Below, piece after piece: positions 7,866 through 11,710 of a stretch of DNA of 34,350 nucleotides; within the stretch, counting starts at the first letter, position 1, and each line of letters starts with the position of its first letter. The notes under the pieces were generated by a model. The model was not told the DNA's origin. It did not search any database and worked only from the letters and a program-made list of their open reading frames with translations. The position numbers were made by a program, and so were the translations under genes. Origin of the DNA: Deltaproteobacteria bacterium. GTDB taxonomy: Bacteria > Desulfobacterota > Desulfobaccia > Desulfobaccales > 0-14-0-80-60-11. The stretch spans positions 1 through 34,350 of the forward strand of contig JASEFS010000036.1 in NCBI GenBank assembly GCA_030018495.1, read 5' to 3'.

Positions 7866-9092
7866 TTACCGCTTCAGGGACAGCACCTCCTCCATCAGGG
7901 TGTCGGTGGTGGTGATGATGCGGGAGTTGGCCTGGAAGGCCCGCTGATAGAGGATCATGTGCACGAATTCATTGCTTAAGTCAACGTTGGACTGCTCCAG
8001 GGAGTTGGCGTTGATTTTCCCCAGGCCGTTGGTCCCCGGCGAGCCGGTGAGGGCCACGCCGGAGTCCTGGGTCTCGGAGTAAAGGTTGCTGCCTTCACGG
8101 TGGAGCTTGCTGGGTGCGTTGAATCGGGCCAAAGTCAACTGGTAATGCGGGATGATCTGGCCGTTGCTGTAATGGCCGGTGATGACCCCTTCGTTATTGA
8201 TGGACAGGCGCTGGAGGAATCCCGGCCCGTAGCCGTCCTGGGAGGCGTAGTTGGTCACGGAGGAGGCGGCGTACTGCGTGGTGCTGCCGCCGCTCGTGTT
8301 GATCAGGTTGAGATTGACGGAGCCGATGTTGAAGGCGCTCAGGTCTATGGCATAAAGCCCCCCGGTGGTCATGGAGCCGTTGGTGTCGAAAATCATGTGG
8401 GAGGGCCCGCCCCCGCCCTGGTCCGTGATATTGGCAGTGATGTCGGCGCCGTCCAGAGTGCCGCTCACCGTCCAGTCATTGGCCGCCGCCTTGGTAAAAG
8501 TCATGGTGAGGACATGCAGGTTCCCCAGGTTGTCGTAAAGGTTAAGGGCCGAGGAATACGAGTCCCCCGCCACGGCGTTGGCGTCCAGGTTCAAGACCAT
8601 GTCCGCGCTGGTGGTGGCCCGGGGGGCCGAGTAGTTCTGGGCGATAAAGATGTCCGTGTCCACGCCGCTGGGGGTGCCGGTGACGGGATCGATGGCCTTG
8701 CCCTGGACCCGGTAGCCGTGGGAATTGATCAGGTAGCCGTCTTTGTTTAAGGAGAAGTTGCCGTCCCGGGTATAGAACAGCCCCTGATCCAGGGGGTCCT
8801 TGACGATGAGAAAGCCGGTGCCGGTGATGGCCACGTCCACTTCATCGGCGCTGGTCTCCAGGGAGCCCTGCTGCCAGACCGTGGAGATATCGGAAATGCG
8901 GGAGCCGCGGCCTACCTCGCCCGGACCGGAGCCGGTGGAGACCATTTGCGCCATCAGGTCCTCAAAATGCACCGCACTGTATTTGAAGCCCGTGGTGTTG
9001 AGGTTGGCGATATTGTCGCCCACCACGCCCATGGCCTCCCCATGGCTGTTCAAGCCGCTCAAACCGCTGTACATGGCCGTGGATAAAGACAT
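7866..9092 (-). CDS. flgE: Flagellar hook protein FlgE
   Basis: FlgE is exported by the flagellar type III apparatus and polymerizes into the hook joining the rod to the filament. The N-terminus carries the flagellar rod/hook signature (MYSGLSGLNSHGEAMGVVGD, then NIANLNTTGFK). The C-terminus ends with the matching helix SNVDLSNEFVHMILYQRAFQ and a short tail. The central, surface-exposed part is rich in G, S, T and N, as in other hook proteins. At 408 residues it is close to the usual size. A GAGGAGG Shine-Dalgarno supports the start. It is the last gene of fliK-flgD-flgE, 38 bp after flgD, and is followed by a strong terminator. Confidence 0.96.
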   Translation of the reverse strand: MSLSTAMYSGLSGLNSHGEAMGVVGDNIANLNTTGFKYSAVHFEDLMAQMVSTGSGPGEVGRGSRISDISTVWQQGSLETSADEVDVAITGTGFLIVKDPLDQGLFYTRDGNFSLNKDGYLINSHGYRVQGKAIDPVTGTPSGVDTDIFIAQNYSAPRATTSADMVLNLDANAVAGDSYSSALNLYDNLGNLHVLTMTFTKAAANDWTVSGTLDGADITANITDQGGGGPSHMIFDTNGSMTTGGLYAIDLSAFNIGSVNLNLINTSGGSTTQYAASSVTNYASQDGYGPGFLQRLSINNEGVITGHYSNGQIIPHYQLTLARFNAPSKLHREGSNLYSETQDSGVALTGSPGTNGLGKINANSLEQSNVDLSNEFVHMILYQRAFQANSRIITTTDTLMEEVLSLKR

Positions 9093-9130: not shown

Positions 9131-9826
9131 CTAAGAAGGTTGACTTACGGAAACAATATTGTCCAGCGGCACCTCCCGGCCGTCAATCTTGAGCCAGATA
9201 CCCCGCTGGTCCTGAAACACCTCCTGGACTCTGCCGGTGAAATAATTGGTGACCTCAAGGCTTTTGCCCTGGCTGTCCGTGGCGGCCACCTGATAGGTGT
9301 AAGTGCCGTCAGGCAGCGTGTTGCCATGCGCGTCCTTGCCGTCCCAGGCGAACTGGTGCAGCCCCGCGGCCTGGCTCCCCGATTTCAGCGTGCGTACCAG
9401 GCCGCCGGCGCGGTCAAAAATGGTGATGGTAACGTCCTTGGCCTCGCCGGCCAGCTGGTAGGAAGCGCCGGTTACCCGGCCCCCGGAGAGGCTCAAAGAG
9501 TTGCTCAGGCCCTTGACGGTTTTCCCTAAAAGGTTCACCCCCCGGGACATGCCCAGGGATTCCTTCAATGAACTAACCGATTGACCGACGCTCTCCAGGT
9601 TTTGGTTGGCGTTGATTTGCTGCTCCAGCGAGCTGAACTGCGCCAGTTGCGCCACAAATTCCTTAGGGTCGTCGGGGCTCAAAGGATCCTGGTACCTGAG
9701 CTGCGTGACCAGGAGCCTTAAAAAATCTTCCTTGCCCATGTCCTTTTGAATAGCCTGGGAAGGGCTCAAGACCGCAACACTGCCGTCGCTGCCCTGCCCG
9801 ATGGAAGATGAGACGCTTGCAGCCAT
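9131..9826 (-). CDS. flgD: Flagellar hook-assembly scaffold FlgD
   Basis: FlgD is the cap that sits on the growing hook and directs FlgE assembly; it is discarded when the hook is complete. The N-terminal FlgD core is clear: GKEDFLRLLVTQLRYQDPLS, followed by EFVAQLAQFSSLEQQ (about residues 31-73). The C-terminal half contains the Tudor/FnIII-like module with ITIFDRAGGLVRTL and WDGKDAHGNTLPDGTYTYQV. A length of 231 residues is normal. The start ATG has AGAGGAT upstream. It lies between fliK (63 bp upstream) and flgE (38 bp downstream), the classical order. Confidence 0.95.
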   Translation of the reverse strand: MAASVSSSIGQGSDGSVAVLSPSQAIQKDMGKEDFLRLLVTQLRYQDPLSPDDPKEFVAQLAQFSSLEQQINANQNLESVGQSVSSLKESLGMSRGVNLLGKTVKGLSNSLSLSGGRVTGASYQLAGEAKDVTITIFDRAGGLVRTLKSGSQAAGLHQFAWDGKDAHGNTLPDGTYTYQVAATDSQGKSLEVTNYFTGRVQEVFQDQRGIWLKIDGREVPLDNIVSVSQPS

Positions 9827-9889: not shown

Positions 9890-11710
9890 CTAGACAAACC
9901 TGTCCACCCGGCTGGTGCGCCGGCGCCTGGCGGCATCGCCGGCGTCCTGTTCCCTTTTGGGCATTTCTCTTTGTGCTCCGGAGGAACCGAAGGCCTCGGG
10001 CGCGGCGGCCCGCACCTGCACCTGAAACTGACTCAGGACCAAACCCTGCTGGGACAGGGTCTGGGCCAACTGCTCCACCCCGGCGCCGGCCAAATGGGCC
10101 ACCTCAGGGCGCGACATCAGGGCGGTGACGGCCAGTTCCTCGCCCTTCAAATTGAAAATCAACTCAATCCGCCCCAGGTGCGGCGGGTTCAGCAGGAGAT
10201 TGAGCCGGTTTTCCCCGGGTCTGAGGTTTCCCAGGATGGCCGATTCAATTTGGGACCAGAAGGCTTGGCGCACCTCTGGACTCCACCGGCCGCCGATGCC
10301 CTCTCCAAGGTTTGCCCCTGAAAAGGCCGGGGACCCTGCGGCCAGGGTAAGCAGGGAAGAAAAAGTCTCCTGGTTTTCCTTGGCCAAAAACGCCGCCGAA
10401 TCGAATTTCCCGGAGTCAGATAAGAAGGTCTGACCGCTCTCCCCCTCCTTCAAATCGGGCTTCAGGCCTTCCTGGTTATCCCGCCACATGGAGCGCAGGC
10501 GCAAGCTTTCGGGCAGGTACAGGGGCTTGGGGGCATCCTGAGGGTCGGCCGGCGGGGCCGAAGGGGCCAGGGCGGCCAGCCGCGCCCTCAGTTCGCCGGC
10601 GCTGGCCGGCGCCTGGGAGCCCAACAGCCCCTCCACCGCGTCGGGGCTGAAGCCGATTTGCATAAGCAACTGCCGCCATTTGGCCAATTCTTCTCCGGAC
10701 GGCGGGCTGGCCGGAAGGTTCGGCTTCGCCAAAGACGCGGCGTCTGCCTGGGAACCTGCGGCTTGCTCTTCGGTCCTAACTTTTTTGATGATCTGCCAAA
10801 TCTGGCCCAGCGGCAACCCCTGGGGGGTGGCTTGGTCTTCCAGCCCGGCCAGGGCCTCGGGGCTGGCGCCCAACTGCTGGAGGGCCAGGCGCAGGTCCGG
10901 CAAGGCCTGGACGGGCAGACGCAGCCGTTCCCACAGCCGGTGATAGCCGGGCCGGCCGGTCACCTGCTCCACTGCTTGGTTTCGGACTGTTGCCTCCTGA
11001 ACCGGTGAAGGGGTTAGGGCTTTAACCCAAGCCCACTTGAGGGCTTCGGCGGTCAGGCCGTGCTCCTGCACTTCGGAAGAAGCAAGCAGGCTCTCGATTT
11101 GTTTTGGCGTAAACCCGGCTTCGCCGAGCAGCGCGGCAATTTCCGGTTGGCGGGTGGCCGGCACCGGCAGGGTCCGGCCCGGGCTTTGCTCTATCAGCTC
11201 CAGCAAACCTGACAGAGCCGGCGAAGGGGACCCTGAGAATAATTCAGCGGGCCCTTCCGATTTTGCCCCCGCTCCCATAGAAGCATCAGCCTGAAATTCC
11301 CGCCAGGCCCGGCCCAGATCATCGAAGCTGAGACCCTCTTTCTGAATTCGGGGGTCGGTCAGGAGCCGCTCCAGGGGCTCCGGGGGAAACCCGCCCTGAA
11401 GCAGCACAGCCGCGGCTTCCGGAAGCCGCTCCGGGGGCACGGTCCTGGTCCTGCTATGTGAGGACCTGTCCGTTTGGCGGAAAGCCGCGCTCGCTCTGCC
11501 AGAATGGTCCTGCGCTCTTGAGTCAGGTTTCGATATTTGTTGGGCGTTCTGCCTTTTCGCCGCCCCTCCTGCCGCCGACCGCCTAAGGTGGGCCACCAGC
11601 CGCCCCTGCAAGACGTTCTTGAAAGAATCTGCCGCCGGCAGACCCCCGTTCGGCTTTATGAGAGCATTTTTGGATGCCGGAAGCGGCAGTGCGGGAGCGA
11701 AAGCCTGCAT
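9890..11710 (-). CDS. fliK: Flagellar hook-length control protein FliK
   Basis: FliK is a secreted ruler that measures hook length and switches export from hook to filament subunits. The C-terminal hook-length domain is recognizable (LNLLLNPPHLGRIELIF, then GEELAVTALMSRPEV, about residues 497-540 of 606). A basic tail, ARRRRTSRVDRFV, follows. The N-terminal part is low in conservation, as expected. It contains four divergent helical modules at about residues 91-139, 181-231, 266-311 and 339-381, with the pattern LLxxxGFxPxxLExLL. The frame is open to a GTG at 11734, but ATG 11710 has GGAG five bases upstream plus the sigma-54 promoter at the right distance. It leads the fliK-flgD-flgE operon. 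Confidence 0.9.
   Translation of the reverse strand: MQAFAPALPLPASKNALIKPNGGLPAADSFKNVLQGRLVAHLRRSAAGGAAKRQNAQQISKPDSRAQDHSGRASAAFRQTDRSSHSRTRTVPPERLPEAAAVLLQGGFPPEPLERLLTDPRIQKEGLSFDDLGRAWREFQADASMGAGAKSEGPAELFSGSPSPALSGLLELIEQSPGRTLPVPATRQPEIAALLGEAGFTPKQIESLLASSEVQEHGLTAEALKWAWVKALTPSPVQEATVRNQAVEQVTGRPGYHRLWERLRLPVQALPDLRLALQQLGASPEALAGLEDQATPQGLPLGQIWQIIKKVRTEEQAAGSQADAASLAKPNLPASPPSGEELAKWRQLLMQIGFSPDAVEGLLGSQAPASAGELRARLAALAPSAPPADPQDAPKPLYLPESLRLRSMWRDNQEGLKPDLKEGESGQTFLSDSGKFDSAAFLAKENQETFSSLLTLAAGSPAFSGANLGEGIGGRWSPEVRQAFWSQIESAILGNLRPGENRLNLLLNPPHLGRIELIFNLKGEELAVTALMSRPEVAHLAGAGVEQLAQTLSQQGLVLSQFQVQVRAAAPEAFGSSGAQREMPKREQDAGDAARRRRTSRVDRFV

Follow-up and report, generated by a model that had tools for sequence, protein, structure and literature searches.

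The gene at positions 9890 to 11710 on the reverse strand of the window (the whole 34,350-nucleotide stretch of DNA analysed here) encodes a modular variant of the known flagellar ruler FliK, in which the ruler is probably a string of beads. Four modules in its ruler part are homologous to one another by computation; they are conserved, have a predicted fold and change in copy number between relatives. The open-licence papers listed in literature searches included none that describes FliK with repeated, folded modules. The gene starts with an ATG at 11710, preceded by GGAG, which gives a product of 606 aa plus stop, and the residue numbering of the original prediction agrees with this start. 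We identify the product as FliK, the flagellar hook-length ruler and export switch, because it carries the Flg_hook switch domain (PF02120 at residues 494-567, E 1.5e-12, 47.6 bits against a cut-off of 29.8) and because the hook genes follow on the same strand: flgD, encoding the hook cap (9131 to 9826, reverse strand; PF03963, E 6e-22, and PF13860, E 4.1e-22), and then flgE, encoding the hook protein (7866 to 9092, reverse strand; PF07559, E 6.6e-16, and TIGR03506, E 4.7e-93). As a FliK it would be secreted through the flagellar exporter and control hook length. No NCBIfam family matched this FliK at E <= 1, a plasmid collection searched with the whole FliK gave no match, and a Pfam scan yielded no model for the ruler part, a region for part of which the module can now serve as a marker.

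The protein, read on the reverse strand throughout, begins with a presumed export-signal region (residues 1-46, positions 11573 to 11710), so named by analogy with Salmonella FliK, with a predicted helix at residues 29-46 (AlphaFold pLDDT about 50-64); residues 1-45 have a mean pairwise identity of 34% and a length of 43-46 residues in 12 proteins. The four modules were delimited by profile homology. Module 1 covers residues 90-145 (11276 to 11443; pLDDT 81-88 by block). Module 2 spans residues 161-232 (11015 to 11230; pLDDT 80-91 when modelled with module 3) and module 3 residues 255-315 (10766 to 10948; pLDDT 80-92 when modelled with module 2), the helix in front being counted in for both. 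Module 4, a short form without strands, takes up residues 338-384 (10559 to 10699; pLDDT 65-81 by block). Just after module 4 lies a stretch containing PKPLYLP (residues 385-405, 10496 to 10558), which is conserved in the family as strongly as the switch domain (mean pairwise identity 55% each). A variable linker (residues 406-474, 10289 to 10495; 22% identity, 62-98 residues, pLDDT < 50) leads to the C-terminal switch domain (residues 475-572, 9995 to 10288; PF02120, 97-98 residues in relatives). The remaining sequence forms a C-terminal tail (residues 573-606, 9893 to 9994) ending in VDRFV. Relatives have VDFFA, IDCFA or IDLFA at this place, and the ending is similar to the GVDIFA with which E. 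coli FliK closes.

The original prediction had placed four divergent modules near residues 91-139, 181-231, 266-311 and 339-381, and comparison of family profiles with shuffled controls confirms that these are homologous. The pattern quoted for them, LLxxxGFxPxxLExLL...GL...L..AW, fits modules 1 and 2 in full and modules 3 and 4 in part: module 3 has LGASPEAL for GFxPxxLE and IW for AW, and module 4 keeps the first two helices without the GL...AW part. When the single protein was aligned with itself (Smith-Waterman, 2000 shuffles per module pair), five of the six pairs stood out, with the observed score reached by 0 shuffles for modules 1 and 2, 4 for modules 1 and 3, 2 for modules 1 and 4, 7 for modules 2 and 4, and 5 for modules 3 and 4. 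The score of modules 2 and 3 was reached by 82 of 2000 shuffles, so this pair is unconvincing from one sequence. Family profiles built from up to 12 relatives gave probabilities of 99.5% for modules 1 and 2, 93.5% for 1 and 3, 95% for 1 and 4, 88% for 2 and 3, 82% for 2 and 4 (89% without the leading helix) and 42% for 3 and 4, the matches of modules 2 and 4 and of modules 3 and 4 being short (19 and 29 columns). In the control, which used the core of module 2, none of the 100 column shuffles per pair reached any of the six scores. This module 1 profile contained the first copies of one genus, which are duplicates of module 2; a second set, with a module 1 profile made from five clear orthologues, gave 99.2, 93.5, 92.5, 91.6, 86.7 and 40.2%, with 0 of 20 shuffles reaching each score. 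This second comparison comprised 36 pairs, and shuffles equalled the score of two of them, both joining groups from outside the order (DfB-DvA in 1 of 20 shuffles, DfC-DvA in 6 of 20). Stretches outside the modules matched the modules at a profile probability of at most about 3%. A chance likeness of Ala/Leu-rich helices, which the single-sequence result for modules 2 and 3 would fit, is hardly credible, given that no family-profile shuffle reached any of the six pairs and that an unrefined module profile matched 9 of 100 FliKs at iE <= 0.01 against 0 of 1000 decoys, with 1 domain at iE 0.01 among 1220 decoys of a second set.

AlphaFold, run on an input alignment of 12 sequences only, modelled the whole protein with a mean pLDDT of 53.1 and a pTM of 0.28. 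By ten-residue block, pLDDT was mostly 80-88 in modules 1 to 3, 65-81 in module 4 and mostly < 50 in the rest; low pLDDT is no proof of disorder, because the switch domain was also modelled at low confidence. Residues 154-322 modelled alone reached a mean pLDDT of 81.5, with 80-92 in modules 2 and 3, and a pTM of 0.43. With pTM this low in both models, the placement of the beads relative to each other is not given. A repeated fold is predicted: modules 1 to 3 share the order strand, helix, helix, strand, helix, and module 4 consists of three helices with no strands. Modules 1 and 2 also have a short helix just ahead of their second strand, and a further helix precedes modules 2 and 3. The modules are thus predicted to fold, and the linkers look disordered.

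Searches for a known fold point to a likeness of module 2 to EF-hand lobes. Foldseek returned nothing significant (best match calmodulin, E 0.86), nor did it return anything at E <= 0.001 with the full-length model (best E 0.21). VIA-align was run on 128 chains chosen by Foldseek, and of the 50 matches listed 43 fell on module 2 and 7 on module 3; judging by their titles, we take 41 of the 43 and 1 of the 7 to be EF-hand lobes. The best module 2 match was calmodulin (Z 5.6, 75 residues, 3.8 A), with troponin C, calpain and centrin also listed, and the module 3 matches were mostly to other folds, the best of them to a primase domain (Z 4.3); a Z under 8 may reflect a common arrangement only. 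In a second look at the full-length model, matches fell mostly on residues 483-572 (Z <= 4.2), and no EF-hand match was specific to module 1 or 4. The calcium-ligand pattern (D/N/S at positions 1 and 5, E/D at position 12) was present in 0 of the 85 second loops that could be scored among 98 modules. No EF-hand Pfam model appeared among the matches to E 10 for 23 and for 10 modules, in searches whose HMMER filters drop most weak matches. These results suggest that module 2 is EF-hand-like in fold and is not an EF-hand; for modules 1, 3 and 4 the likeness would hold only through their homology to module 2. Scattered Pfam matches, to Pex14_N (E 1.5e-4, 2 of 23 modules), Homeobox_KN (E 3.6e-4, 1 of 23) and WH_Rok (E 0.0056, 1 of 10), were taken as a likeness among small helical bundles because they are not common to most modules. 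Matches of a profile of modules 2 and 3 to designed repeat proteins among PDB sequences (nominal E 5.6e-15, 1.9e-11 and 8.5e-5) were put down to chance because they are made up of many weak pieces with single E-values all above 19.

Across 12 family FliKs, module 2 is 71-72, module 3 60-61 and module 4 45-47 residues long, with mean pairwise identities of 46, 47 and 44%, respectively. Linkers have 20-23% identity and range from 8 to 139 residues, the latter figure including the leading helix of an additional unit that one genus carries. Module 1 varies more (33% identity) and is missing or decayed in some relatives. Trp and Gly positions are invariant in the 12 sequences, the invariant residues including W228, G199 and W260. 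The modules themselves seem to be under selection, because they keep a fixed length and 44-47% identity while the linkers drift.

A search with the whole FliK matched 22 of 59 genomes (the window genome included), namely 15 of the 29 within the order and 7 outside it, the latter through the switch domain only. The module profile was searched in 395 genomes of the phylum, with at most 17 candidates scored per genome, and all 36 matches at E <= 4.5e-5 lay in FliK frames, from 10 genomes of the order; as far as strong matches go, the module is confined to FliK. Another 13 matches were weaker: 6 of them again fell in FliK frames, 2 fell in what we read as an enzyme or transporter of another kind, and 5 in frames without a name. 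The weak matches in G025 (contig C77) and G335 were set aside as noise, their frames looking, by our own reading, like an ABC transporter and a purine-synthesis enzyme. Relatives share the repeats: each of the 15 FliKs recovered from the order carries 3-6 modules, and 7 of the 15 had a match in a PF02120 search, which is independent of the modules. That search matched 169 of 297 genomes, and the 100 FliKs scored with the unrefined profile were drawn from the matches listed and chosen for spread over families. After five refinements, the module was found at iE <= 0.1 in 43 of 122 FliKs and was not found in 79 of 122, with E-values that are flattering since the FliKs scored were also those used to build the refined profile. 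Outside the order, 28 of 107 FliKs matched at iE <= 0.1 and 25 of 107 at 0.01, some with two to four modules, the 28 being no blind estimate because L102, L135, L136 and L137 come from genomes with an earlier weak FliK module match. The last refinement round that included decoys gave 4 domains at iE 0.1 and none at 0.01 among 1220 decoys. This survey covered FliKs of Desulfobacterota and one E. coli FliK; the latter has no module (best domain 0.8 bits), while the hook profile matches it. The modules are therefore not needed for a ruler as such, since E. coli FliK and 79 of the 122 sampled show none.

The most likely reading, at about an even chance, is that the ruler works as a string of folded beads that the exporter unfolds, the beads adding helix-prone length and perhaps slowing transit. 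The beads would be small helical domains of about 45-70 residues each, joined by disordered-looking linkers and folded in the cytosol, where they would keep a long ruler compact. A folded lobe would be wider than the export channel, which measures 13 A in the injectisome, a limit also argued for the flagellum in part of PMC5073101, so the exporter would have to unfold the beads. In the channel the chain would be helical or extended, and the total of residues, beads and linkers together, would set hook length as in Salmonella, where passages of PMC6126814 report hooks lengthening by 0.2 nm per residue inserted in FliK and FliK sizes of 363-785 aa. Extrapolated from Salmonella (405 aa, 55 nm, 0.2 nm per residue), which belongs to another phylum, a FliK of 606 aa would set a hook of about 95 nm and one of 987 aa a hook of about 170 nm. 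Unfolding may also slow the transit of FliK, so that its C-terminal switch domain has long enough to act on FlhB. This pausing role would be carried over from the other end of Salmonella FliK, where an excerpt of PMC13344023 attributes the pause required for switching to a folded region of the switch domain. On this view the gain or loss of a bead would alter length stepwise and might alter the transit time as well, and the linkers would supply most of the length differences seen here. A more specific version, in which calcium-free EF-hand-like beads are unfolded one by one and their number sets both a dwell time and fixed length steps in many FliKs of the phylum, is doubtful; if true, hook-length control would be partly kinetic.

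A serious, though less likely, alternative is that the modules are docking domains which, like calmodulin-type lobes, grip a helix belonging to FlgE, FlgD, FlhB or some other export component, and that their conservation reflects binding. EF-hand lobes commonly bind helices, module 2 is nearest to such lobes, and the conserved modules with their invariant Trp and Gly positions would suit binding. Sections of PMC6972891 describe FlgD and FlgE as binding partners of the N-terminal domain of Salmonella FliK, with weaker FlgE binding and longer hooks once residues 129-159 are lost. Against docking, the likeness in fold is weak and comes from module 2, and many of the conserved positions look, as judged by eye, like core residues.

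It is unlikely that the modules are passive, helix-prone filler, with duplication having lengthened a ruler in which only helical content matters. The helical content of YscP reportedly sets injectisome length, judging from the title of a 2009 paper. The increment of 0.2 nm per residue is likewise said, in part of PMC6126814, to fit a helix. A fixed module length and 44-47% identity would be unexpected of filler while the neighbouring linkers drift.

The idea of a modular ruler is supported in that folded modules are predicted, relatives share them and copy number varies; the proposal that module number sets hook length is not supported. FliKs of the family carry 3 or 4 copies, whereas one from the sister family (L029) carries 6 and another, with an interrupted frame, 5. 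The extra copy in 4 of the 6 FliK-bearing species of one genus is a second module-2 unit including its leading helix. In the tree, a clade with support 100/96 unites the first copies and groups with module 2, the wider fork being less firm at 87/88, so that the extra unit reflects a tandem duplication or its loss. Control by module number alone would fit the range of 3 to 6 copies and one genus in which the switch domain starts at 542-624 with four modules and at 499-501 with three. Across 13 FliKs of the family, in which the switch domain starts at 449-624, module number showed no significant correlation with that position (Spearman 0.12, p 0.69; 0.29, p 0.34 when L037 is scored without its first module, which is decayed). 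L036 has a fifth match of 5.8 bits, which did not enter the count. Adding the six-module L029, whose switch domain starts at 844, gave 0.34 or 0.46 (p 0.23 or 0.10). The switch domain starts at 449 in both a three-module and a four-module FliK (L038 and L002). The residues outside the modules (241-419) correlated with switch-domain position at 0.83 in the 13 species, and we attribute most of the length differences to the linkers because these residues track ruler length and module number does not. Module number as the sole setter of hook length is accordingly quite improbable.

Three of the surveyed FliK loci look unusual. In G028 (L030, 3272-5176), fliK stops after 635 aa without reaching the switch domain, and a 141-aa frame of its own encodes the latter; this is a frameshift, either natural or from assembly. 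In G021 (L034, 3569-5677), the FliK frame runs to the contig end with an apparent second switch-domain start after the first, either a duplication or an assembly artefact. The 987-aa L029 (3229-6189), from the sister family, contains a long repeated segment that includes a piece resembling module 4; the repeat has the look of a recent internal duplication.

A bead-string ruler would bear on the question of whether a secreted ruler measures by chain length alone or also by folded parts and pauses. Close relatives with 3, 4 and 6 copies and different linkers should make length, fold and timing separable experimentally. Among known systems, the EF-hand lobes of calmodulin, troponin C and centrin resemble module 2 as modelled in having helix-loop-strand-helix twice; the modules differ from them in lacking the calcium-ligand pattern DxDxDGxIxxxE and a listed EF-hand Pfam match, and the Z values are below the level of kinship. 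YscP of the Yersinia injectisome is likewise a secreted ruler, and its helical parts have been inserted to lengthen FliK (a passage of PMC6126814); the modules described here are homologous domains seen in FliK. That FliK rulers are usually described as unstructured, as the original prediction assumed, is not the general view, since the passages concerned call the central part of Salmonella FliK alpha-helical (PMC6126814) and only its linker intrinsically disordered (PMC6972891). The FliKs of Salmonella and E. coli share with this protein the C-terminal switch domain, an N-terminal ruler and a similar C-terminal end, and they are 405 aa (per a section of PMC6972891) and, without a module, 375 aa long, respectively, against 606 aa here.
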